Source: Chloroflexota bacterium (GTDB taxonomy: Bacteria; Chloroflexota; Anaerolineae; UBA2200). Taken from it: a stretch of DNA of 64,000 bases. This document shows, piece after piece, positions 6,571-33,807 of the stretch. The notes under the pieces are model-generated. The model searched no databases, was not told the origin of the DNA, and was given only the letters and a program-made list of their open reading frames with translations. Each line of letters opens with the position of its first letter. The stretch's first letter is position 1. Location: contig JACIWW010000007.1 in NCBI GenBank assembly GCA_014360905.1, forward strand, positions 1-64,000. The letters run 5' to 3'. A program made the translations under genes and the position numbers.

Positions 6571-7743
6571 TTAAGCCGTGGTTAGTAATTTTTGCACAGC
6601 ATCCAGCACTGTTTGAGGCGTGATTGCACGCACACAAGGATGATCTGGCAGCTCCTTGGCAGAATAGTCGAGGCGATTGCAAGGAATGCATGCATAACTA
6701 GAAGTGAGAACTAAGTGCTTCTCTGGTTGACCCCAAGGGCCAAATTTGCGCGCATCTACCGGCCCGTAGAGATGTACTGTGGGTGTCCCCACAGCCACAG
6801 CCAAGTGCAATGGCCCACAGTCTGGTCCGATGACCAAGCGGGAACGCTGGTATAAGGCAGCGAGCTGACCAAGGGTGGTATCTCCGGCGGCGACAATGGG
6901 CTCATTGAGCATTTGTGCATAGATAGACCAGGCTAAATCAAGGTCATCGCGACCACCAGTGAGCACAACTTTGGCCTGCCAACGTTCTATGATCGCATCC
7001 GCCACTTGAGCAAAGGCTTCTGACCTCCATTCCTTAACCGCAGCACCTGCACCGGGATGAATAGCAATGATCTTTTCTTCGGTGGTCACGCCATGCTCTG
7101 CTAAGTAACGGGTGATATCCTCCTGATCCTGTTCGGTGACGACGACTTCGAGGTTCAGTGGATCTTGGGGAACCTCCCGGCTATAAACATGGATGGCTTG
7201 TTCAACCAATGCTAAATTTTGCTGCACTTCATGCCGTTGGCTTTCATAAGGGATGGCCATGGTCAGAAAAGGTTCGCATTCGGCAATGGCATAACCCAGG
7301 CGATAAGGGATGCCTGCCAGGTATGCCAGCAAAGCTCCCCACCAGTGGTCGAAGCGCAGCACGATAGCTATGTCGAAACGCTTTGCTCTCAATTCGGTAG
7401 CCCATTTCCAGGCCACCTGATATGGGATGAATAGTGCGCCTTTGGGTTGGCGAGTGAATCCCGGGAAAGTGCAAACGATGACTTCATCCACATGGGGGTT
7501 TTTCTCCACCACTGCTTTGGCCCATGGCCCTGCCATGCATGCCAAATACGCATCGGGAAAAGCTTTGCGCAGCACGCGCAACGCTGGCGTGGCGAAGAGC
7601 AAGTCACCAATGTGATCGGGGCGAATAAGCAAAATGCGCGGGCCAGTGTCTTCAATCCTTTTTTCCTGGCGCTGCAAGAAAGGGGTACAGGCGGCGAAAG
7701 CGCGCAACAAAATCAGACGTAAATGCTGACGGCTAGTGCGCAT
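6571..7743 (-). CDS. Glycosyltransferase family 9 (heptosyltransferase-like)
   Basis: 390 residues. The N-terminal half has RPDHIGDLLFATPALRVLR, the classic GT9 start where a basic-Asp-x-IGD loop contacts acceptor and donor. The C-terminal half has AIHPGAG and GPDCGPLHLAVAVGTPTVHLYG, the nucleotide-sugar site. These are hallmarks of ADP-heptose:LPS heptosyltransferase relatives, which in bacteria without LPS act on other cell-surface glycans. Two Cys pairs near the end (CIPC and a later C) could bind metal. It overlaps the upstream glycosyltransferase by 11 bp, so they are translationally coupled. Donor and acceptor cannot be told. Confidence 0.85.
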   Translation of the reverse strand: MRTSRQHLRLILLRAFAACTPFLQRQEKRIEDTGPRILLIRPDHIGDLLFATPALRVLRKAFPDAYLACMAGPWAKAVVEKNPHVDEVIVCTFPGFTRQPKGALFIPYQVAWKWATELRAKRFDIAIVLRFDHWWGALLAYLAGIPYRLGYAIAECEPFLTMAIPYESQRHEVQQNLALVEQAIHVYSREVPQDPLNLEVVVTEQDQEDITRYLAEHGVTTEEKIIAIHPGAGAAVKEWRSEAFAQVADAIIERWQAKVVLTGGRDDLDLAWSIYAQMLNEPIVAAGDTTLGQLAALYQRSRLVIGPDCGPLHLAVAVGTPTVHLYGPVDARKFGPWGQPEKHLVLTSSYACIPCNRLDYSAKELPDHPCVRAITPQTVLDAVQKLLTTA

Positions 7744-14510: not shown

Positions 14511-15581
14511 CTATGCCGTCAAATTCCTTACTGTGGGCTCATCCAGGCGCATGATGAGTTTTACCAGAAGGTCAAGGGCATGGTCATAGTCTTGACGGTG
14601 CAGTATGCCAGCATGGCTGTGGATATGCCGCGTTGGAACGCCAAGGACCACAGTAGGAACGCCCTCGTTATGCAAATGAATCATCCCGCCATCTGTTGCG
14701 CCACCGCGCATGGCGGAAAACTGCAAGGGGATATTGTTTTCCTCAGCCGTGGCAATCACCAGGTCGCGCAAGCGAAGGTTCGGAATCATGCGCGCATCGT
14801 ACAGCAGCAGAGTAGGCCCTTTGCCGAGCTTGATTGCTGATTCCTCGGGTTTGATGCCGGGCACATCTCCCGCGATGTCCACTTCTAGGATGATCGCGAC
14901 ATCTGGATTGACATTGTAGACGCTGGTTTTGGCCCCGCGCAGTCCCACTTCTTCTTGTACTGTGCCCACGGCATAAATCGTGTTGGGGTGAGCCTGGCTG
15001 GTCAATCGCTCGAGGGCTTGGATGAAAAGAGCGCAACCCAGTCGGTCATCCCAGGCCTTGGCCATGTAGGTTTTTCCTGGAGCCAGTACGGTAAAGGGGC
15101 AGATAGGGATAATCGGGTCGCCTAGGCGTACTCCACAGGCCTTGACCTCCTCCGCGCAGGTGGCTCCAATGTCTATGTACATATCTTTCTTTTCAACCGG
15201 TTTTTTGGCTTCCTCTTCTTCCAGAAGATGGGGAGGTTTGGCACCCAGCAGCCCAACTACATCGCCAGCAGAGGTCTTGATCACCACGCGTTGGGCCAAC
15301 ATGACCTGGTTCCACCAACCGCCCAGCGGTACGAAGCGGATAAAGCCGTCATCAGTGATAAGGCTGACCATAAAGCCGACTTCATCCATATGGCTGGCGA
15401 GCATCACCCGAGGTTTGTCTGTGCTGCCACGCTTTACGCCAATAATACTGCCTAGTTTATCCTGTTCAATCCTGGCCATAGGTTCCAGATAGCGACGAAT
15501 GACAGCACGCACTTCGCCTTCGTATCCTGGCACGCCTGCTGCCTCGGTCAGAGTCTGGAAGAGTTTTTCTGTGGAATCCAT
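14511..15581 (-). CDS. M42 family metallo-aminopeptidase, paralogue 4
   Basis: 356 residues. All dinuclear-metal and catalytic positions of M42 are visible: His-Asp in LASHMDEVGFMV, bridging Asp in AWDDRLGC, the Glu-Glu pair in TVQEEVGLRG, Asp in LEVDIAGDVPG and the last His in TRHIHSHAG. M42 enzymes (glutamyl aminopeptidase, TET peptidases, historically called endoglucanase M) form dodecameric shells that trim short peptides in the cytosol. This copy has an extra LLEEEEAKKPVEKKD segment in the middle. It is the fourth of four adjacent M42 genes. Confidence 0.92.
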   Translation of the reverse strand: MDSTEKLFQTLTEAAGVPGYEGEVRAVIRRYLEPMARIEQDKLGSIIGVKRGSTDKPRVMLASHMDEVGFMVSLITDDGFIRFVPLGGWWNQVMLAQRVVIKTSAGDVVGLLGAKPPHLLEEEEAKKPVEKKDMYIDIGATCAEEVKACGVRLGDPIIPICPFTVLAPGKTYMAKAWDDRLGCALFIQALERLTSQAHPNTIYAVGTVQEEVGLRGAKTSVYNVNPDVAIILEVDIAGDVPGIKPEESAIKLGKGPTLLLYDARMIPNLRLRDLVIATAEENNIPLQFSAMRGGATDGGMIHLHNEGVPTVVLGVPTRHIHSHAGILHRQDYDHALDLLVKLIMRLDEPTVRNLTA

Positions 15582-24227: not shown

Positions 24228-24302
24228 GTCCAACGGTTTGCGGCTTAGCCGCCCCGCGGAGCGCAGCGGAGCGGCGTCAGGTGGAAGCGCTTGTGGTTAA
24301 CA
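24228..24302 (-). repeat. attC site A (end of cassette 3)
   Basis: 75 bp. On the minus strand it begins GTTAAC, shares ACAAGCGCTTCCACCTGACG and the GC-rich centre with the other two sites, and ends in a perfect core GTTGGAC at 24234-24228. The second arm is diverged from the other copies, so the fold is less regular. The gene at 24277 ends inside this site. Confidence 0.75.
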
Positions 24303-25445
24303 GTCCCAAGGTGTTGAGAATCTCTTTTAGACCTTGTACCTGACTCAATGCTCGTTGGAGATCTCGAACCTCGAAATATCTCACAGCGTTCCGGAAACCT
24401 TCATCCAATGATGCTATCTCACGCCTGAATTGATCCAGTTCGCCCTTCGATGAGACTATGACCACTTTCTGAATGGTTGGATCACGCCTGATTCGTTGTA
24501 GGTTCAAGATGACAGAATCACGACTCCCCTTCCTATGTACCTCAAAAGCATAGGAAATAGTGCCTAGATTCGCCACGCGGCTTCTCCAAATTGCGTCAAT
24601 GCGGCATCCTGGCATAACGCTAAACTCTCGCTGCACGTCAAACCCGAGGCCATCCCCCAGTTCAATGACTTGAGCCACCACGACGTCATGCTCAAAGTCT
24701 TCGGTCTCTACGGGCGACACTATTGGTGCCCCCATCGAGATTTCTGGGCGTGTCTCCTCAAGGGAGATGTAATACAATAAAAAGTACAATTTGAACAAGT
24801 CGTCAAACTCTGGATCTACCCTCGCGACTTGGCCGCGCACATCTTGGACCAACTTGCAGTAAGACGCGTACTGCGCCCCGCTAATCTGCGCTGATTTCGG
24901 CAGTCGTGATTTATCAACTCCAAGGGTTATCAATCCCTGCCTGCTCCTGCTGTTCCAAATAGGATACTGTGTATGGTCATGATGTGCCAGAATCTCTGAA
25001 ATACAGGCCGCTCCCATCATGCGAACGCTCTTCTTGACTTTGTCAAATCGCTCTGGAAGAGGATCCGTTCCATACAGGAGTTGCTTGAACGCAGTGCGAA
25101 TTGCCGGCAATCCGGAACGAAGCATCTCTTGGAGAAGCCAGTCCTTGTTTGTCCAGCCGTTAAAAGCCCAGAGAGCATGGATCAACTCGCGCAATACACC
25201 TTCATCAAGACTGTCAATCTGCTGCTCCGAGAAGTAGCGAGCGAAGAACGCATCCTTATCCTGCCGCTCTTTCTGCCACTGCTCACCCTCTGTTTGAAGG
25301 AAACTACGGAAGCGGGGCAAAAGGCTTCTTAGTAGATCATTGTTGATCGGTTTCACGTTGTACCTCCTAATGAACTGCTGATTTCATCCATTTGTTCAAG
25401 CCGATTGGGCGCGCCGTTAGTGCGGACGCTGCGCGTCCGCGCTAA
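24234..25445 (-). mobile_element. Integron gene cassette 3 (1.2 kb)
   Basis: Extends from the crossover position of attC B (between G 25446 and T 25445 on the minus strand) to that of attC A (G 24234). It holds one gene (24277-25356). Its 5' end starts with a strong hairpin (25413-25449). The expected complementarity between cassette start and attC A outer end is only four bases (GTTA), weaker than in cassettes 1 and 2. Confidence 0.65.
24277..25356 (-). CDS. Cassette-borne protein, possible PD-(D/E)XK-type nuclease
   Basis: 359 residues, not recognised as a named family. N-terminal two thirds are helical (REL, HALWAFNGWTNKDWL, QLLYGTDPLPERF). Near 240-290 the pattern GCRIDAIWRS then ISYAFEVHRKGSRDSVILNL has the shape of a PD-(D/E)XK core, Asp then E-x-H in place of E-x-K, followed by a helix with Arg; VVIVSSKGELDQFRREI continues the fold. 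This is inference. The last codons (TSAST and the TGA) lie within attC A, as often seen in gene cassettes. It is next to the restriction-modification cassette, so a defence role is conceivable. Confidence 0.65.
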   Translation of the reverse strand: MKPINNDLLRSLLPRFRSFLQTEGEQWQKERQDKDAFFARYFSEQQIDSLDEGVLRELIHALWAFNGWTNKDWLLQEMLRSGLPAIRTAFKQLLYGTDPLPERFDKVKKSVRMMGAACISEILAHHDHTQYPIWNSRSRQGLITLGVDKSRLPKSAQISGAQYASYCKLVQDVRGQVARVDPEFDDLFKLYFLLYYISLEETRPEISMGAPIVSPVETEDFEHDVVVAQVIELGDGLGFDVQREFSVMPGCRIDAIWRSRVANLGTISYAFEVHRKGSRDSVILNLQRIRRDPTIQKVVIVSSKGELDQFRREIASLDEGFRNAVRYFEVRDLQRALSQVQGLKEILNTLGLLTTSAST

Positions 25446-25449
25446 CGGC
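25413..25449. repeat. Strong hairpin overlapping end of attC B
   Basis: GCCGTTAG at 25413-25420 mirrors CTAACGGC at 25442-25449, and GCGGAC (25422-25427) mirrors GTCCGC (25435-25440), giving about 16 paired positions with one mismatch and a short loop. It includes the GTTA core of attC B, so it overlaps the recombination point. It may be a remnant of another site or a terminator for cassette 2. Confidence 0.6.
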
Positions 25450-25511
25450 TTGCGCTTCACCTGCGCCGCGGAGCGCAGCGGAGCGGCGTCAGGTGGAAGC
25501 GCTTGTTCGGC
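25440..25511 (-). repeat. attC site B (end of cassette 2)
   Basis: 72 bp. Minus-strand order: GCCGAAC (25511-25505), arm GCGCTTCCACCTGACGCCGC, central spacer, arm GCGGCGCAGGTGAAGCGC, then GTTAGCG (25446-25440). The arms pair except for a C and an A that are extra in the first arm. On the opposite strand, the one IntI recombines in its folded form, these would be extrahelical G and T, as in well-studied attC sites. The sequence outside, CAGGCCGCCGAAC, is the exact complement of the start of cassette 2. Confidence 0.85.
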
Positions 25512-25532
25512 GGCCTGACCTTGTGCACATTT

Positions 25533-28500
25533 TTACTCAATGTTCCCAGCCACTATGTTCAAGCACGCCAGCCATGCGCGCATGGCATCCCATGCCTCTT
25601 GCTCGTCGGTAAGCGGAGCTTCAACATGGGCGACGCGCGTGTTGCGGAATTCGTTGACTTGTGACAAGAGTTCACAAAGTGCACCGAACCGCGCTGCTGA
25701 GAACCGCCGCCTGACTTCTTCCCATATCCCATGAACGTCATCTCTACCCTGGCGGGCGTACTCCAGGCAAAAGAGGAACGTCCCCAAACGCTGGATCGAG
25801 CGCCCGAAGACCAGATTGTCACGCAGATAACGCTGATTCTTCTCCAACAGTGCCCGCTCGCGTTGGGGCAGATGCTCCAGGCTGGGATTGAAGAAGGCGA
25901 TGGACGCCTCTTTGTCTGGCGGGATAACGGGCTTCAGGTATTTTGCCAAGACACGTAGGGCATATTCTTCCAATGGACCGAGCAGGGGCTGGAAGGCGTG
26001 GGCAAAAGTAGGCTGGCGCGAGCGAATGGCATGATCGAGCAGTAACACGGCCTGACGCATCACGCTCTCAACCTCGACGGGCGGGTGCGTGATGCCGGCT
26101 TCCCGCAACACCCGCTCGAACAACGTTTCAGCCTGAGACTGGGCGGTGGCTTCTTCCAGGGGCAAAGCAAGTTGCCGCGTTTCCCACTCGTTCAGCAAAG
26201 TCTTGAGCGATGGCTCGCAGGCGCGGGCCAATTCAGCGATGGTCGTGGCTGCCTCCTGCTGGAAAAGGTGATACGGCACATAGAGATAGTGCCAGCGCGT
26301 CTGCTTGCCGGAAGCGACCTTGCACCATTCAACGGCGGCACTGGCCTTGAGTGGGACCATCTCGTCCTGGCGGCCTTTGAGTTCCACCAGGTAATGATCG
26401 CCATCTTGGGTACGCACGAAAAAGTCAGGGACATAGAGCGCACGCTGCCCATCCGGCCTGAGATAGTCAATCATCAATTTCTGCGGTCCGGCATTCTTGG
26501 CAAAGGCGGCCACGTCCTGCGCCGTTTCGAGAAAGTCGGTAAATCCCTGCTCAAAATCGTTGTCGCAGGGCACGAGGTTGAACATGGTGCGCTGGGCAGG
26601 CAAAGCGGGACGTTTGTCGTGGCTGGTGGCCTGATAAGGCTTCCAGGTGGAAAGGCGTTGTCCGCGGCTGACGCGCTGGCGTTTCTGCTTGCGCACCGTC
26701 TTTTGCAGAATCAGTGGCGTGAATGTGGCGCGGATGTGCTCCATCACGTCCAGGTCGCGCATGCGGTGATCCACTTCCCCGCTATAGAGGTCAACCGGAC
26801 GTTCAAACAGTACCTCGGCAAGAAAACGCTCCACCAACGGCGCGAGCGCCTGATGAGGGTTGGAGACGCGGCAGGTGCGGCCCAACATCTGCGCAAAGTA
26901 AGCCGGGGCCGACCAGGCGTTATTCAACAGGCCGGCATCCAGCCGCATGGTTGCCACAATCTCATCGGTGAACAGGTGCCGCTCTTTGTACTCAATCGGC
27001 CCTTCCCTTTTCTGGCCGATTGGCAGCGGCTTGAACCCGGCCAGAAAGGCGTCGCGCACCTCTTCGAAGGTCAACCCCTGCAGTTCCTGCGTGGTTTCGA
27101 TGGCGTCGGAAACCAGCGGAATCTCGATCTCCAGCGCCTCCACGTCTTTGTGCTCGTGATCCACAAAGATCGTGACAGTTTGTTTGAATACCTCGCGCAC
27201 GGGCAGGACGGCGATGTCCAACCCTTCCTGGGTTAGTTCGTCTTCGTAGAGTTTGCGGAAAGCCGGATGCTCAATCACGGTGACCAGCTCCGGCGTATCA
27301 CCGAGCGGGAACATGCGGCGCAGGCCGCGCCCCAGGGTTTGTTCCGGCAGGATGCCTGATTTGGCCGAGTAGGGGCGCAGCGGTACGATGGTGGTCACGT
27401 TGCGCACGTCCCAACCCTCGCGCAACATCATCACCGAGACCACACAGCGAAATTTGCTATCGGGGCTGTCCAGTTCACGGGACATCTCACGCAGTGCACG
27501 CAGGTCGTCCGGCTTCATGGCCGTTTCGTTTTCCACGAACTCCTTGAACGTTCGACCCCCGCGCAAGACCGTCTTGACCCGCCCCCTGAGCCGGGTGTGA
27601 ATGTTCAACACACGCCCCTTGAGCAATGGAAAGGCGTTGCTGTCCAGATAATCGGCGATTTCGTTCGCCGCAGCGGCATCTTCTGTCATCACGAACAAGA
27701 TCGGCTTGCGCACCTTGTGCAATTCGTCGTAGGTCTTGAGATAGCGCTCATAGCCCAGTTGCAGATGCATGTGATAGCGCTCGTGGGCGGGCGTTTTTTT
27801 GTCGCCGCGCACCACCAGTTCATCCGACTCGCCCAGCACCGGCACCTTGACGATGCCTGCGTCTACGGCCTCGCCCAGGGGAAAATCCACGACGATATGG
27901 CGAAAGAGCGATCCGTCGTTGTGCTTGGGCGTGGCGGTAAAGTCCAGTTGCGCGCACAAGCCCCGATTGCCGCGCTTCAGGCTTTCCTCGTGCAGCGCTT
28001 CGATGGCGCGGTTCCAGGCGAGATCGGGGTCATGCAGGTGATGGGCTTCGTCGTTGAGCGCCATCAGACGCGAATGGGAGGTTATGCGCTGGCGTAGGCT
28101 TTCGCCAGTGTCCAGCGCCCGGCCGCGTACCACCGGCGGACCAAAGATCGCGTCCGCCCCTATCTCACGCGGCGCGTCGCCCCCGTTGTCGCGGCTGGGG
28201 TAGAGGCGGTGGATGTTGGTCAGGTAGATGGCGCCGGTCGTCGTCGCGCCGCCCGGTTCGTCTTGCAGCACCACCTGCATCTGAAAGTCGCTGCGCCACT
28301 CGTCGGGGATGAGCGGGTCCTGATAGAAGATGGCGCAGTTCTCGAAATCATCTTTCAGGCGCTCATAGACGGTCAGGTTGGGCGCGATGACCACAAAGTG
28401 GCGCGCCAGGTCGGAGTCCGGTTCGTAGAGGCTGTGGAAGTAGCTCCACACGATGGCCAGGCTCATGATCTTGGTCTTGCCGGCGCCGGTGGCGATCTTG

Positions 28501-28958
28501 GCGCAGTACTTTGCCCAGCAGTCTTGCTCCGGCGGGATGCCCAGAGCCAGGTCAGCCAGTTGATTGTCGCCAAACTCGAACAGCAGTTCGGCCACGTTGC
28601 GCACGCGGCGCAGTTCGTACAGGTAGATGAAGGTCTCGATGGCCTCCCGCTGTGCCCAGTGATAGCGGAAGGGAACCACGTCTCCCGCATCCGTCTTGAC
28701 CAGATGTTCGTTATTGAACCAGTGCTGGAGCAGCGCCCGCGAGGTGTCGCTGACGCCGGCATAGCCGCCGCGCCGCCAGGCGTCCACCTCGGCGCGAATG
28801 GCGCGCACGAGGGGCACCTTGCTGGGCCGTCGCCCGGGCGCGATGATCGCCGGCTCGCCCGGCGTTGGGTTGGGCAGGCGGTGCAGCGTCGGCTCTTCCC
28901 ACGGCTTGAAGAGCGGCTCCAGGGCCGATGCGTTCTGCTGGGTGATCTCGAAGGGCAT
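25533..28958 (-). CDS. Type III-like restriction enzyme (Res): SF2 helicase plus nuclease
   Basis: 1141 residues. Start ATG 28958 follows AAAGGAGG; the longer reading to 29006 would translate a palindromic repeat and is rejected. Helicase motifs: Walker A KIATGAGKTKI (about 150), DEAH in LNDEAHHLHD (about 300) and motif VI QTLGRGLRRMFP (about 550). The C-terminal nuclease PD-(D/E)XK site is YVPDFFVRTQ then YLVELKGRQD (about 843-857). It translocates and cuts unmethylated DNA together with the Mod enzyme at 29617-31536. The family resembles BPTD_3080-type endonucleases. The extra C-terminal 250 residues are of unknown role. Carried in integron cassette 2. Confidence 0.9.
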   Translation of the reverse strand: MPFEITQQNASALEPLFKPWEEPTLHRLPNPTPGEPAIIAPGRRPSKVPLVRAIRAEVDAWRRGGYAGVSDTSRALLQHWFNNEHLVKTDAGDVVPFRYHWAQREAIETFIYLYELRRVRNVAELLFEFGDNQLADLALGIPPEQDCWAKYCAKIATGAGKTKIMSLAIVWSYFHSLYEPDSDLARHFVVIAPNLTVYERLKDDFENCAIFYQDPLIPDEWRSDFQMQVVLQDEPGGATTTGAIYLTNIHRLYPSRDNGGDAPREIGADAIFGPPVVRGRALDTGESLRQRITSHSRLMALNDEAHHLHDPDLAWNRAIEALHEESLKRGNRGLCAQLDFTATPKHNDGSLFRHIVVDFPLGEAVDAGIVKVPVLGESDELVVRGDKKTPAHERYHMHLQLGYERYLKTYDELHKVRKPILFVMTEDAAAANEIADYLDSNAFPLLKGRVLNIHTRLRGRVKTVLRGGRTFKEFVENETAMKPDDLRALREMSRELDSPDSKFRCVVSVMMLREGWDVRNVTTIVPLRPYSAKSGILPEQTLGRGLRRMFPLGDTPELVTVIEHPAFRKLYEDELTQEGLDIAVLPVREVFKQTVTIFVDHEHKDVEALEIEIPLVSDAIETTQELQGLTFEEVRDAFLAGFKPLPIGQKREGPIEYKERHLFTDEIVATMRLDAGLLNNAWSAPAYFAQMLGRTCRVSNPHQALAPLVERFLAEVLFERPVDLYSGEVDHRMRDLDVMEHIRATFTPLILQKTVRKQKRQRVSRGQRLSTWKPYQATSHDKRPALPAQRTMFNLVPCDNDFEQGFTDFLETAQDVAAFAKNAGPQKLMIDYLRPDGQRALYVPDFFVRTQDGDHYLVELKGRQDEMVPLKASAAVEWCKVASGKQTRWHYLYVPYHLFQQEAATTIAELARACEPSLKTLLNEWETRQLALPLEEATAQSQAETLFERVLREAGITHPPVEVESVMRQAVLLLDHAIRSRQPTFAHAFQPLLGPLEEYALRVLAKYLKPVIPPDKEASIAFFNPSLEHLPQRERALLEKNQRYLRDNLVFGRSIQRLGTFLFCLEYARQGRDDVHGIWEEVRRRFSAARFGALCELLSQVNEFRNTRVAHVEAPLTDEQEAWDAMRAWLACLNIVAGNIE

Positions 28959-28973
28959 GGCTACACCTCCTTT

Positions 28974-29002
28974 GGATTGCTGAAGCCTCGCTTCAGCAAT
29001 CC
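28974..29002. repeat. REP-like hairpin 1
   Basis: GGATTGCTGAAGC at 28974-28986 and GCTTCAGCAATCC at 28990-29002 form a perfect 13-bp stem with a CTC loop. Near-identical to hairpin 3 (29941-29969). It contains the stop codon of the RAYT gene and the region just before the Res ribosome site. Confidence 0.8.
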
Positions 29003-29544
29003 ACATCTGGAACGTTTACCCGATCATAAGGAACAGCCGTCAGCTTCTTGCGAAAGTCATCCGATGCATGGGCCTTGAACCAGGCTGCGGAGCAGAAAGG
29101 ATATTGCTCGGCAACCGGAACCAGGCCATGTTTAACCGGGTTGTTGTGGACATAGTTCAAACGCGCATCATAGCTCTTTTCATACGTCAGACAGGTATCC
29201 CAATACTGAAACCAGACCCGCCGGCCTGGAGTGCGGTCTAATTCATTCACCAGACGCGCCGATTGGGAGTGCAAGCGTTGAATCAGCCGTTTGAGCGACG
29301 TCCCATCCTCAGGGGCACGGGCAATGAAATGGTAGTGATTGACAAACAATGCCCAGGCTTCGAGTTCCCACCCGTGGGCCAGCATGACCTCGAACAGGGT
29401 GTTCTGGAGCAGGACGAGCTTGGCGGCAGTGTCAAAGATGCGCTGTTTGTGGAGGGTTGAGGCGGTGACGATGTAGAGAGCGTTGGGCACAAAGAGGTGC
29501 AGCGGCCCATGTGGCCAGGTACCGATTTGAATGGAGTCTGTCAT
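28993..29544 (-). CDS. REP-associated tyrosine transposase (RAYT, Y1/HUH)
   Basis: 183 residues. ATG 29544 has AGGAG six bases upstream. HUH motif NHYHFIARA (about residue 80) holds the metal-binding His pair. The catalytic Tyr lies in the helix YEKSYDARLNYVHNNPVKHG, whose YVHNNPV signature is diagnostic for RAYT (TnpA_REP, IS200/IS605 superfamily). Such single-copy transposases process REP hairpins. Three REP-like hairpins lie here: at its stop codon, just upstream, and inside the methyltransferase gene. It sits between the Mod and Res genes and separates what is normally a continuous operon. Confidence 0.92.
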   Translation of the reverse strand: MTDSIQIGTWPHGPLHLFVPNALYIVTASTLHKQRIFDTAAKLVLLQNTLFEVMLAHGWELEAWALFVNHYHFIARAPEDGTSLKRLIQRLHSQSARLVNELDRTPGRRVWFQYWDTCLTYEKSYDARLNYVHNNPVKHGLVPVAEQYPFCSAAWFKAHASDDFRKKLTAVPYDRVNVPDVDC

Positions 29545-29573
29545 GCCCATCTCCTGAACTTTTTGGGCTTTTT

Positions 29574-29602
29574 GGACTGCGGAAGTCAAACTTCCGCATT
29601 CC
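29574..29602. repeat. REP-like hairpin 2
   Basis: GGACTGCGGAAGT at 29574-29586 and ACTTCCGCATTCC at 29590-29602 form a 13-bp stem with one mismatch and a CAA loop. Located upstream of the RAYT start. On the minus strand it is followed by TCCAAAAAGCCCAAA, a tail shared with hairpin 3. Confidence 0.75.
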
Positions 29603-29616
29603 AAATGGCTTCAATC

Positions 29617-31536
29617 TTAAACCTCCACATCCAGCACAATGGTCGTATCCACGCCAAAGACGTCAATCACCTTGACCGCAATTTGATGCTTGCCGGGTGT
29701 TTCATAGTGCCACCCGATGTCGGTGCGCGTCTTGAGCGAGCGGTCTTTGCGCGTGCGAAAGTCCTGCCAGTGGTGTTCAAAGGGCTTGTCGGGGGCATAG
29801 TCAAAGTCCACCGCCCAAAAGTCAATGAAGTCGAACGGCGAGCGGATCGCCCGCTCGCGCAGGGCGGCTAGTTCGGCCTCGGGCGCCTCGGCCAGGGCGG
29901 GGGTAAAGCGCAGCAGTTCCACGTCCACTTTGGACTTTTTGGACTGCTGAAGCCTTGCTTCAGCAGTCCATATGACCCGGGCTTCCAGCGCGCCGGCCTC
30001 GAAGAACTGCACCTCGGTGCGGTTGGGCTCCATGATCTCGCGGGGGATGTACTTCAGGCGGATGCTGACGCCGGTCTCGGCCTCCAGCGCCTCCTTCTTG
30101 CGGCTCAGTTCCATCTCGAACTCCCAGGCCAGGCAGTGCACCTCGCGCCCGCCGACGCTGCGCACCGCCTCGGCCACGGCGCGCAGTTCCTCGTGGGAGA
30201 AGATGCTGTCTATTTGATCCACGTGGACGTAGGCCGCGCCCTTCTTGCCGTGCAGGAGCGGATGAGGCGGTTGTGCCTTGCCCTCACCCCCGGCCCCTCT
30301 CCCGATGGGAGAGGGGAGAAAGGGGGCGGCCTTGTAGAATTGCAGCACGATGCGGCGGTGCTCGCCATCGGCGCCCTTGAGGCGGTCCATCTGCCACCAC
30401 TGACGCTCGTAACGCCCCAGGTTATAGACGTCAAAGGAGCGGTAGGGCTTGCCCTGCTCGTGCAGTTCGCGCTGGACTTGAATGAGCCGCTTGCGGGTGG
30501 TATGGATGGCGTAGCGTCCCAGGTCCACGCCGATCCAGCGCCGGCCGAGCTTCTCGGCGACGGCGAGGGTGGTGCCGCTGCCGCAGAAGAAGTCTGCTAC
30601 TAGTCCACCTTCCCCGGAACAAACGCCTATGACTTGTTTAAGCAACGCCTCTGGTTTCTGCGTGTTGAATCCGGTTCGTTCTGTCTTGTCGTTTTGTCCA
30701 GGGATGTTTATTCTCCAAACGTCGCCCTTGACTTTCCCCATAGGATGGTAGTAGTGAGCTTTGCTCGCCGGAATGTTGATATCTGGGCTGTATGGCTCTC
30801 GTGCATCCTCGACTTCGGTCTCCATAAATGCCATATCAGCATTCTTGCCATATCGAAAAATCGTATCGTGCCGTTTCCCAAAACCGTTCTGCGCTCTCGG
30901 CCCGCTGTTGTAGAACCATATGATTTCGTTGAGCAGTTGATCGCCGAAAATTTCTTCTAGCACTAGCCGAACAAGGCTATTAACTCTGTAGTCAACATGA
31001 ACAAAAATGTTCCCGTTCTCGCTGAGCAGGTCGCGCATCAGGACCAGCCGCTCGTACATCATGTGCAGGTAGGAGTCGGTCCCCTTGCCCCAGGTGTCGC
31101 GGTAGGCCACCGCCTCCAGGATGGACTGCTCCTTCTGCAGCGCCTCGCCCTCTTCGCCGATCTGCACCTGCATGGTAAAGTCGGCGCCCACGTCGAAGGG
31201 CGGATCAATGTAGATGAGGTCAATCTTGCCGCGGAACTCTTCCAGCAGAGCGGCCATCACCAGCTTGTTATCGCCCCAGATGAGCATGTTGCGCCAGTCG
31301 TCGCGGTGGGCGCTGCGGCGAAACTCTGCGTCATCAAAGGGCAGGCCCAACTGGCGCGCCTGGGCTTTGCGGGCGTCGCGGGGCTGGTCAATGGTCTCGA
31401 TGCGCTGCAGGGGCAGCGGAGAAGCGGGCAGGCGCACCGGGCGGCGGTTGCCGTACTCGTCGTATTTGCCCTCCCAGACCAGTTCGGTCTTCATACGGGA
31501 AAGCGGGTGTGGGTTTTGGGGTCCCCAGTCGGTCAT
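29617..31536 (-). CDS. Type III-like DNA adenine methyltransferase (Mod)
   Basis: 639 residues, ATG 31536 after AAGGAG. Catalytic motif IDPPFD at about 110-115 (DPPY class), and the SAM-binding motif ADFFCGSGTTLAV at about 313-325. The order DPPY first, FxGxG second, is beta-class N6-adenine methylation as in type III Mod and pairs with the Res gene. Between the motifs lies the target-recognition region. Two repeat elements are read in frame: a GC palindrome coding PSPIGRGAGGEG (about 405-420) and a REP-like hairpin coding AEARLQQSK (about 523-532). Neither breaks the frame; whether the enzyme tolerates them is unknown. Confidence 0.9.
   Translation of the reverse strand: MTDWGPQNPHPLSRMKTELVWEGKYDEYGNRRPVRLPASPLPLQRIETIDQPRDARKAQARQLGLPFDDAEFRRSAHRDDWRNMLIWGDNKLVMAALLEEFRGKIDLIYIDPPFDVGADFTMQVQIGEEGEALQKEQSILEAVAYRDTWGKGTDSYLHMMYERLVLMRDLLSENGNIFVHVDYRVNSLVRLVLEEIFGDQLLNEIIWFYNSGPRAQNGFGKRHDTIFRYGKNADMAFMETEVEDAREPYSPDINIPASKAHYYHPMGKVKGDVWRINIPGQNDKTERTGFNTQKPEALLKQVIGVCSGEGGLVADFFCGSGTTLAVAEKLGRRWIGVDLGRYAIHTTRKRLIQVQRELHEQGKPYRSFDVYNLGRYERQWWQMDRLKGADGEHRRIVLQFYKAAPFLPSPIGRGAGGEGKAQPPHPLLHGKKGAAYVHVDQIDSIFSHEELRAVAEAVRSVGGREVHCLAWEFEMELSRKKEALEAETGVSIRLKYIPREIMEPNRTEVQFFEAGALEARVIWTAEARLQQSKKSKVDVELLRFTPALAEAPEAELAALRERAIRSPFDFIDFWAVDFDYAPDKPFEHHWQDFRTRKDRSLKTRTDIGWHYETPGKHQIAVKVIDVFGVDTTIVLDVEV
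29941..29969. repeat. REP-like hairpin 3, inside the methyltransferase gene
   Basis: GGACTGCTGAAGC at 29941-29953 and GCTTCAGCAGTCC at 29957-29969 form a perfect 13-bp stem with a CTT loop. Lies in frame within the Mod gene, adding about ten residues plus a tail (minus strand TCCAAAAAGTCCAAA). Confidence 0.8.
30294..30316. repeat. GC-rich palindrome, inside the methyltransferase gene
   Basis: CCCCTCTCCC (30294-30303) and GGGAGAGGGG (30307-30316) form a perfect 10-bp stem with a 3-nt loop. In frame it codes for SPIGRGAGGEG. Similar CTCTCCC/GGGAGAG palindromes are widespread intergenic repeats in many bacteria, from general knowledge. Confidence 0.7.
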
Positions 31537-31585
31537 CTTCTCGCACTCCTTGAGGCTGATGTGATGGGTCGGGAGTCAACAGGCC

Positions 31586-31657
<72 letters not shown>

Positions 31658-31682
31658 GGCAGACAAGGTCATCTTTGTATAA

Positions 31683-32120
31683 TTATGGAGCAGGCGTGCC
31701 CAAACTCCTCTGTATTTCATTAAACTGTTCTTGGAGCATAGGCCCAAGGACTATGCCGGCGAAACTACAAACCGCCAAAATCGAGAATAGTCCTCCTAGC
31801 ACAATTCCTGCGATTGCCATTCCTTGTCCCTTCTTCTCTTGTCTCTTTTTGATTCTGGAGAGGGCTTTCACTCCAGTCACAACTGCGACTATCCCGAAGG
31901 AGACCATACTTACATAAGTAGCCATTAGTGAATTCAACAGAGAACCGAGTATGGTTGGGACAATGAGAGCTGCCAGACACCCGAATATCAAGCTTGTTTT
32001 GGCTAATCCATATGGATTTCCAAAATCATTCTCCTGAGAAGAAGGTAATTCTGCTCCGCATGATTTGCATTTCCAAGCTACGTCCAAGTTTTCTGTTTGG
32101 CAATTAGGACACGGTTTCAT
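31683..32120 (-). CDS. Cassette gene: zinc-ribbon DUF4190-like membrane protein
   Basis: 145 residues from ATG 32120, nine bases after GGAGG; the in-frame ATG upstream would overlap the preceding gene. Starts MKPCPNCQTENLDVAWKCKSC, a single zinc ribbon, followed by two long hydrophobic segments around a basic linker (LSRIKKRQEKKGQGM-AIAGIVLGG), the layout of DUF4190 proteins. Function unknown. Second gene of cassette 1, separated from the first by 5 bp, so the two form a mini-operon under the integron promoter. Confidence 0.75.
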   Translation of the reverse strand: MKPCPNCQTENLDVAWKCKSCGAELPSSQENDFGNPYGLAKTSLIFGCLAALIVPTILGSLLNSLMATYVSMVSFGIVAVVTGVKALSRIKKRQEKKGQGMAIAGIVLGGLFSILAVCSFAGIVLGPMLQEQFNEIQRSLGTPAP

Positions 32121-32125
32121 CTTTT

Positions 32126-32581
32126 CTAACCTCCACTTTCTTTTGTCTTCCATAGACCAAACAAGATGCCGATTAATCCAATGACGCTTATCCAGAGGCC
32201 GAAACGAGGTTCTGTGTAGGTAATGCGCCACTGGTTCAGCCACTTAATCTCGATAAAGAACAGAACAAATGGTAGTAGACCGGCGACTGTCAAGAGGAGT
32301 TGCACTACAAGAATGGACAAAGGTGAATGTCTGTTGATGAACACCAAAGATAATATCCCGCATACTAAAGCCATTGCTATGGGTATATAGTAAGCCCAAT
32401 GTAGATGGGCATATTGTTTCGACAAACCCCCTGATGCGATAGCATATCCAGTACTTCTAATCCCAAAGCCGCCGTAGTAGTAGGTCGTTTCCCACGGCAA
32501 CATAAAGCCAATTGCGGTTACTATACTTGAAATAACTACGAATATATTGCCCGAATTCAATCGTTGGACTTGGCCGCTCAT
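32126..32581 (-). CDS. Cassette gene: four-helix membrane protein
   Basis: 151 residues from ATG 32581, eight bases after AGGAG; a longer reading would run back through attI into the divergent intI region and is rejected. Four hydrophobic segments (about 12-32, 62-84, 92-114, 126-146). No family recognised. It is the first gene after attI and its ribosome site lies 20 bp inside the cassette boundary, the position with highest expected expression. Confidence 0.7.
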   Translation of the reverse strand: MSGQVQRLNSGNIFVVISSIVTAIGFMLPWETTYYYGGFGIRSTGYAIASGGLSKQYAHLHWAYYIPIAMALVCGILSLVFINRHSPLSILVVQLLLTVAGLLPFVLFFIEIKWLNQWRITYTEPRFGLWISVIGLIGILFGLWKTKESGG

Positions 32582-32603
32582 AGATTCAACTCCTGATCTT
32601 GGG

Positions 32604-32619
32604 TTGTCTGCCGCCCAAC
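32604..32619 (-). other. attI/cassette-1 junction
   Basis: Minus-strand GTTGGGCGGCAGACAA with a perfect GTTRRRY core (GTTGGGC). The sequence to the left of the G (higher coordinates, towards intI) would be attI proper; all bases after the first G belong to cassette 1. The A/T-rich flank ATAATCAATA and CGGATTCCG repeats lie on the attI side. Confidence 0.7.
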
Positions 32620-32624
32620 TATTG

Positions 32625-32630
32625 ATTATA
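32625..32630 (-). promoter_or_regulatory. Possible cassette promoter Pc (-10 box)
   Basis: Perfect TATAAT on the minus strand (plus ATTATA), only 6 bp from the recombination point, so transcripts would start at about the first base of the first cassette. No good -35 is found at 16-18 bp; the CGGATTCCG palindromes there could bind an activator. Low certainty. Confidence 0.4.
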
Positions 32631-32675
32631 CGGATTCCGCAATTTGCCCCATATTGGAGAGATATGCGGATTCCG
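32631..32675. repeat. Paired CGGATTCCG palindromes in attI/promoter region
   Basis: CGGATTCCG occurs at 32631-32639 and 32667-32675, 36 bp apart. The second is the centre of a longer near-palindrome, 32661-32681 (GATAT to ATATC). A related TGCGGAATTGCA lies at 32701-32712, inside the intI promoter spacer. They could be integrase-binding direct repeats of attI or operators of a regulator controlling both Pc and intI. Confidence 0.55.
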
Positions 32676-32692
32676 TATATCCATCTTAAATG

Positions 32693-32721
32693 TTGACTTT
32701 TGCGGAATTGCAGGCTACAAT
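32693..32721 (+). promoter_or_regulatory. Promoter of intI
   Basis: TTGACT at 32693-32698, 17-bp spacer, TACAAT at 32716-32721. Transcription would begin near 32728, giving a 30-nt leader to ATG 32758. This excludes the in-frame ATG at 32644. Confidence 0.7.
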
Positions 32722-32757
32722 AGAAACTACTTTTTATTTTATTCCAAGGGACCAGAA

Positions 32758-33807
32758 ATGTCAAATTTATCGCCAAAGCCAGCCCAAGCTTCATCCTCTC
32801 CGAAACTCTTAGACCGCGTACGAGAGGCACTGCGTCGCAAGCACTATTCTTACCGCACAGAACAGGCCTACTTGCTCTGGATTAAGCGTTTTATCCTCTT
32901 CTACAACCCTGGTCTGAGCCCAGCGAACGTCAAACGTCACCCGAAAGAAATGGGCGCTTCGGAAGTTGAAGCCTTTCTCACTCATCTAGCCGTGAAGGAA
33001 AACGTCGCCGCCTCTACTCAGAATCAGGCCCTTAGTGCGTTGCTGTTCCTATACCAAGAGGTGCTCCATAAGGACCTAGGCCCTATTGATGCTTTACGTG
33101 CGAAAAAGCCCAAACGCTTACCCACTGTCCTCACCAAAGATGAGGTGCGCTGGGTCATCAGCCACCTGTCCGGCCCCCACCAATTGATGGCCAAACTGCT
33201 CTATGGCTCTGGTCTACGCCTGATGGAATGCCTGCGTCTGCGCGTTAAGGACCTGGACTTTGACCACCGCACCATCATCGTGCGGGATGGCAAGGGAGCC
33301 GAAGATAGAGTGACGATGTTGCCCGCTAGCCTTATCATCTCATTACAGGAACACCTGCAGTACGTAAAACGCTTGTATGAGCAAGACTTGGCCAAAGGCT
33401 ACGGTGCTGTCTACCTGCCCAACGCCCTGGCACGCAAATACCCCAATGCGGAGCGCGAGTGGGGCTGGCAATACGTTTTTCCCTCAGCACGCCTATCCGT
33501 GGACCCCCACAGTGGCCTCGTGCGTCGCCATCACCTGGACGAGAGCGGCTTACAAAAGGCAGTTCGAGAGGCAGCTCGCCAGGCTGGCATCATCAAACCA
33601 GTCGGGCCTCATACTTTCCGCCACTCCTTTGCCACTCACCTCCTCCAAAACGGCTATGACATCCGCACCGTCCAGGAACTTCTCGGCCACAAGGATGTGC
33701 GCACGACCATGATCTACACCCACGTCCTACAACGCGGCGGCATGGCTATGCGCAGCCCGCTGGATTTGATAGAAGATGATCCAAAGATAGGGGAGAGAAC
33801 GCCTTGA
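32758..33807 (+). CDS. intI: Integron integrase IntI (tyrosine recombinase)
   Basis: 349 residues. Core-binding domain: [20 protein letters not shown] (about 22-41). Catalytic residues: Arg in [16 protein letters not shown] (about 153), His and Arg in [11 protein letters not shown] (285, 288), His in [10 protein letters not shown] (311) and Tyr in MIYTHVL (320). The IntI-specific additional domain absent from XerC/D is clear: [20 protein letters not shown] (about 220) then [14 protein letters not shown] and VRRHHLD. The family inserts and excises gene cassettes at attI and folded single-stranded attC. It is divergent from a cassette array with attC repeats, the standard integron layout. The last four bases overlap the mevalonate kinase start. 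Strongest call in the window. Confidence 0.95.

Follow-up and report, generated by a model that had tools for sequence, protein, structure and literature searches.

A 6.1-kb segment of a Chloroflexota genome that is very probably one sedentary-integron cassette with a complete Type III-like restriction-modification operon

Introduction

We know of no settled account of how genes turn into integron cassettes, and the locus described here poses this question for a whole operon: is a 6.1-kb segment lying between two attC sites one cassette, does it carry a complete restriction-modification system, and from where would such a unit have been captured? Among cassettes, genes for restriction and methylation form a common class (PMC9668308). 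The excerpted text of PMC12444791 lists restriction systems among the cassettes of Xanthomonas chromosomal integrons and cites Darracq 2025, Getz 2025 and Kieffer 2025 for antiphage cassettes in the sedentary integrons of Vibrio and in mobile integrons. Excision has been studied with synthetic cassettes whose inserts measured 60 to 3,060 bp, and its frequency fell where a large cassette had sites that folded poorly (PMC5371416); attI sites have been little described beyond class 1 (PMC9024848). Searching the literature for Type III restriction in integron cassettes gave no paper on this combination, judged by title and abstract, which is weak evidence of absence since few subscription journals were covered.

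The segment lies in a 64,000-nt window, the whole stretch of DNA analysed here; the window is part of contig C7 in a draft genome of 2.83 Mb and 49 contigs. An initial annotation of the window had read it as a single cassette with complementary ends that moved as one unit with the genes Mod, RAYT and Res. We conclude from its sequence features that the segment is very probably one cassette of a sedentary integron and that its cargo is a complete Type III-like restriction-modification operon.

Results

An integron platform beside the segment

The window encodes an integron integrase, IntI (32644..33807, plus strand), which matches TIGR02249 with E=1.5e-145 and 484.5 bits against a cut-off of 265. 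Its reading frame is intact, with ATG 32758 as the likely start. IntI adjoins an attI site (32619..32700, minus strand; recombination point at the G of GTT, 32619) and is divergent from the cassette array. The attI carries repeated CGGAATCCG/CGGATTCCG-type motifs, and the same sequence also heads other arrays in this genome and in the sister species G001. A candidate cassette promoter Pc (32736..32764, minus strand; TTGACA-17-TAAAAT, 11 of 12 consensus positions) is directed into the array. Read along the minus strand, the array consists of attI, cassette 1, attC C, cassette 2, attC B, a third segment and the decayed attC A. The cassettes share a host-specific attC: sites B and C are 94% identical, and a copy on contig C4 is 95% identical to C. 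To judge from this anatomy, the platform is a sedentary chromosomal integron.

Cassette 1 (31592..32618, minus strand, 1,027 bp) holds two small ORFs, one of them a zinc-ribbon/DUF4190 protein by Pfam, and its ends pair over 16 nt. The third segment encodes a 359-aa protein (24277..25356, minus strand) with no match in Pfam, NCBIfam or PADLOC. Matches to this protein occur in 11 of 249 genomes of the class, the source genome counted, and closer relatives stand in two genomes at 74-75%; inspection of the flanks of these close relatives by eye revealed no attC. Directly after attC B follows a palindrome, GTTAGCGCGGACGC-GCA-GCGTCCGCACTAAC (25413..25446), which looks like a gene-less mini-cassette of ~30 bp. 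Also written GTTAGCGCGGACGC-TGC-GCGTCCGCGCTAAC, it occupies the first position in four arrays in addition to its place after attC B. The array-head copies stand beside attI at L099 8745-8784, L100 ~14767-14798, L101 ~7546-7580 and L102 4669-4702, and G001 has similar palindromes of other sequences.

Boundaries of the 6.1-kb segment

Cassette 2 (25446..31591, minus strand) measures 6,146 bp: it begins with the T that follows the G of GTT at 31592 and ends with the G of GTT at 25446. With a G+C content of 0.60 it differs from the window (0.54) and from cassette 1 (0.46). The sequence GTTCGGCGGCCTG has a single copy in the window, on the plus strand at 25505-25517, and so has its complement CAGGCCGCCGAAC, at 31580-31592. 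On the minus strand the R'/R'' ends of cassette 2 are thus complementary at 13 of 13 positions, part of which belongs to the common R'/R'' core, as the start of cassette 1 and the end of cassette 2 already agree at 9 of 13. The complementarity that the initial annotation had described is hence exact, and each half of it is unique in the window.

Three 71-nt repeats mark the array, at 24232-24302 (A), 25444-25514 (B) and 31590-31660 (C), with the 94% identical copies B and C spaced 6,146 bp apart. Both attC C at the end of cassette 1 (31586..31657, minus strand, 72 nt core to core) and attC B at the end of cassette 2 (25440..25511, minus strand, 72 nt core to core) fold as bottom-strand hairpins with bulged bases on one arm. 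The folding of attC C is good (bottom strand -28.1 kcal/mol, z=-3.06) and that of attC B fairly good. In the decayed attC A (24232..24302, minus strand) the left arm is kept and the right arm altered, and it shows no excess folding (z=0.16). A relaxed attC scan, requiring both core sites and a fold filter, recovered B and C and found no attC-like hairpin between them, so that the claim of a 6.1-kb unit uninterrupted by a further attC is upheld.

We then rebuilt the attC sites as they would be in the excised circle, folded every cassette end with every start and compared the energies. The end of cassette 2 reaches -40.6 kcal/mol with its own start and -26.8 to -31.6 with the other starts, while the end of cassette 1 reaches -46.4 kcal/mol with its own start and -31.2 to -35.4 with the others. 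For these two cassettes the own-start fold therefore beats any other by 9 to 11 kcal/mol. The ends of the third segment do not match each other and have no folding partner. Since cassettes 1 and 2 each pair with themselves alone, each is best read as a single unit and not as a chimera.

This result bears on the concern that unrelated stretches were falsely joined from short reads within the 71-bp attC repeats, a fault that the draft state of the assembly and the 94% identity of these repeats might favour. The unique 13-nt start and end of cassette 2 nevertheless pair with each other and not with a neighbour, its interior is collinear with other genomes, where the order Mod-RAYT-Res runs uninterrupted (loci L019 and L122), and collinearity with G001 extends over the integrase and the right flank. 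We hence regard an assembly chimera as highly unlikely. Of the earlier statement that all 6.1 kb moved as one unit, the single unit is borne out by the matched ends, while the movement itself would follow from the anatomy.

Genes of the cassette

The three ORFs lie where the initial annotation had placed them, all on the minus strand: Mod at 29617-31536, RAYT at 28993-29604 and Res at 25533-29006; mod and res run in the same direction with RAYT between them. Mod (29617..31536) is a 639-aa N6/N4 DNA methyltransferase of the Type III kind (Pfam N6_N4_Mtase, E=7.5e-41) that matches PADLOC MTase_III over its full length (residues 4-636, E=4.9e-289). EcoP15I Mod (4zcf, E=1.2e-18) is its top solved-structure relative, and EcoP15I and other Type III Mods are among its best solved-structure matches, at partial coverage. 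The beta-class order is kept, with a DPPF motif, the target-recognition region and then an FCGSGTT motif. The DNA of the target-recognition region (30612..30998, minus strand) cannot be aligned to that of L019, while both flanks are 79-84% identical, so that a methylation motif different from that of L019 is predicted. Between the recombination point of cassette 2 and the start codon of Mod lie 55 bp, and a simple scan of this leader found no promoter. Plasmid relatives of Mod are distant matches only, with <60% identity.

Res (25533..28958, minus strand) combines an SF2 helicase with a PD-ExK nuclease (Pfam ResIII, E=2.2e-17). Its ORF opens at 29006, and the start is probably ATG 28958 because the codons upstream are read from a REP palindrome. 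The Walker A motif, DEAH, motif VI and the PD-ExK residues are intact; TGAGKT, DEAH, ATP, QTLGRGLRR and D845/E859/K861 are invariant or nearly so in 12 aligned sequences. Res matches PADLOC REase_III over part of its length (E=8.5e-20) and NCBIfam NF046055 partially, with 263.8 bits against a cut-off of 800, and a phmmer search against solved chains gave no match. The Type III assignment proposed for the pair is thus firm for Mod and weaker for Res, whose model matches are partial.

Between both genes lies a REP-associated tyrosine transposase, RAYT (28993..29604, minus strand; NCBIfam NF047646, E=4.4e-28, above the curated cut-off), in which HYH and Tyr motifs are present by eye. REP-like palindromes flank it on the 3' side (28974..29002) and on the 5' side (29572..29600, family D3), an arrangement that agrees with the definition of a RAYT/REP given in PMC2817692. 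Two palindromic repeats are also inserted in frame in Mod, at 29929-29974 and about 30270-30325. The first includes a REP-like palindrome (29941..29969) that encodes the residues WTAEARLQQSK and is found, within the alignment, in RAYT-bearing operons only. All three aligned RAYT-bearing operons have Mod insertions at the same two positions, whereas relatives without RAYT have none. The source genome holds two perfect copies of the REP palindrome, both in cassette 2, and one copy with three mismatches, so abundance in the host genome was not found; G045, the genome holding L122, has eight copies at up to three mismatches. The rarity in the host suggests a foreign origin.

The same operon outside integrons

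We searched for relatives of the operon by tblastn over 80 loci and scanned the flanks of the Mod-Res loci for attC. Mod is followed by Res in 71 of the 80 loci, and RAYT stands between them in L019 (a Chloroflexi MAG), L022 (a Chloroflexales MAG) and L010/L122 (a class-mate of the source genome). Across Mod-RAYT-Res, cassette 2 shares 77-84% DNA identity with L019 and L122. At the protein level L019 is 71% (Mod), 78% (RAYT) and 85% (Res) identical to cassette 2, and L122 74% (the sequenced part of its Mod), 83% and 80%. Neither L019 nor L122 has an attC or an integrase nearby, and since the same gene also lies downstream of Res in both, the operon there appears to occupy a settled chromosomal place.

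The DNA homology to L019 spans 25557-31538 and ends there on both sides: on one side it breaks off where Mod begins, on the other not more than about 25 bp from the Res stop. As the homology ends at the operon edges and the target-recognition region has been replaced, the operon is older than the cassette. We conclude that the three genes already formed an operon and were captured together, and we infer the direction of transfer from these comparisons.

These loci also bear on the possibility that Mod, RAYT and Res arrived as two or three cassettes that fused when the intervening attC sites were deleted. Decay of an attC has taken place in this array, as attC A documents, and the mismatched ends of the third segment indicate that fusions occur here. 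L019 and L122, however, show the order Mod-RAYT-Res without an integron, and the 71 loci show that in this family Res normally comes after Mod, which makes a fusion very improbable. RAYT was part of the operon before capture and did not join it inside the integron.

Further arrays and the sister species

In G001, the right flank and the integrase side are collinear with the window. Its IntI is internally deleted, with only the two ends remaining, while attI and the TTGACA-17-TAAAAT promoter candidate are kept. The array of G001 holds other cassettes, one pair of which resembles HicB/HicA by eye, and its locus has no Mod-RAYT-Res operon. By this comparison the platform is older than the species split, and its content has turned over since. 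The short array and the decayed attC A of the window may point to an aging integron platform.

The source genome has a second integrase at C4:9013. Heads resembling attI without an adjacent integrase were seen at C4:34.8k (L100), C17:52.5k (L101) and C21:4.7k (L102), and also at C4:32138-32160; the head at C4:34.8k has a Pc-like promoter as well. Two of the integrase-less heads are of the window's attI type and one is of the type of the C4 integron; the two integrases may act on these arrays in trans. One ~2.5-kb cassette of the C21 array (L102 2050-4546) encodes three proteins, namely a Type II methyltransferase, a protein of 241 aa and a restriction enzyme of Type II (PADLOC REase_II, E=7.6e-75); its ends match at 9 of 10 bases by eye. 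In the C17 array (L101 8316-14264), a Type ISP/IIG gene split by a DUF559 segment forms a 3.7-kb cassette that is followed by a GmrSD-like gene.

A wider link between the Mod-Res family and integrons was considered and rejected, as among the scanned flanks only L040, an Anaerolineales contig, has a full-consensus, gene-proximal attC; the other matches were without proper core sites or lay in repeats or coding sequence. In L040 a cassette-like 240-aa ORF precedes the attC (1036-1155; consensus cores, z=-4.9) and a Mod-Res pair of the same family follows 44 bp behind it. This left attC is the only one, with no right-hand site before the contig end, and the association is apparently independent of that in cassette 2. 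In L065, from a cyanobacterial MAG, a decayed IntI fragment (7385-7663) is divergent from a Mod gene of the family and lies some 340 bp upstream of it; this Mod locus showed no attC.

Discussion

Taken together, the matched ends, the folding energies and the relatives outside integrons would fit the following course of events. The operon would derive from a chromosomal copy carried by a related lineage; it would have gained an attC of the type native to the host, and IntI would have inserted it through recombination of the folded bottom-strand attC. RAYT would be a passenger that resided in the operon with its palindromes before capture. Cassettes 1 and 2 would be transcribed jointly from Pc, located about 1.2 kb upstream, as only 55 bp separate the start of cassette 2 from Mod and the scan of these found no promoter. 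The recognition region of Mod would direct its methylation to an asymmetric site, and Mod and Res together would cut unmethylated phage or plasmid DNA. We infer mobility, expression and restriction of cassette 2 from its sequence. By analogy with the drop in frequency for large, poorly folding synthetic cassettes (PMC5371416), the 6.1-kb unit may move rarely.

A further reading accepts the cassette ends as real and takes the unit to be now fixed, with restriction inactive or silent. The failure of the scan to find a promoter in the leader, the two in-frame insertions in Mod and the decay of attC A speak in its favour. Against it stand the intact IntI that scores above its cut-off, the good folding of attC C and fairly good folding of attC B, and the retained catalytic motifs of Mod and Res; the insertions have similar in-frame counterparts in L019 and L122. 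We consider such an immobile state possible, if on balance doubtful. More tentatively still, the lineage might run a network of integron platforms in which entire restriction-modification operons are kept as oversized cassettes, new cassettes arising when the lineage's own attC is added to a complete chromosomal operon; L019 and L122 would then resemble the state before capture. Such a network would comprise the two intact integrases and three or more attI-headed arrays that have no integrase beside them. We rate this proposal as speculative and rather unlikely.

Since close relatives of the operon reside in ordinary chromosomes, cassette 2 looks like a defence system packaged for shuffling. 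The cassette can be compared with non-cassette copies at 77-84% DNA identity, which makes the capture junctions readable. In a poorly studied phylum, it also adds complete restriction systems of several genes and several kilobases to the defence functions that integrons carry, and it raises the question of mobility for such large cassettes.

Restriction genes in integrons were already known, and the unusual points are the size, the Type III cargo and the visible non-cassette relatives. The initial annotation's judgement that size and completeness are unusual stands, with defence and restriction cassettes themselves on record (PMC12444791, PMC9668308). Xanthomonas integrons likewise hold restriction systems in chromosomal integrons; they belong to another phylum, and the excerpts of PMC12444791 give no Type III pair or multi-kb cassette. 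Sedentary integrons of Vibrio and mobile integrons are, according to the same excerpts, likewise stores of defence genes. With EcoP15I-like Type III systems, cassette 2 shares the Mod family, the order of Mod before Res and a helicase-nuclease Res, while its Res forms a separate branch from EcoP15I-type Res, as the partial NF046055 match and the phmmer result indicate. The chromosomal operons L019 and L122 have the same genes in the same order with RAYT in the same position, and differ from cassette 2 in being without attC or integrase and in their target-recognition region. With 6.1 kb and three genes, compared to the mostly short coding sequences of sedentary chromosomal integrons (median 362 bp, PMC5371416), cassette 2 stands at the far end of the known cassette size range, at several times the usual length.
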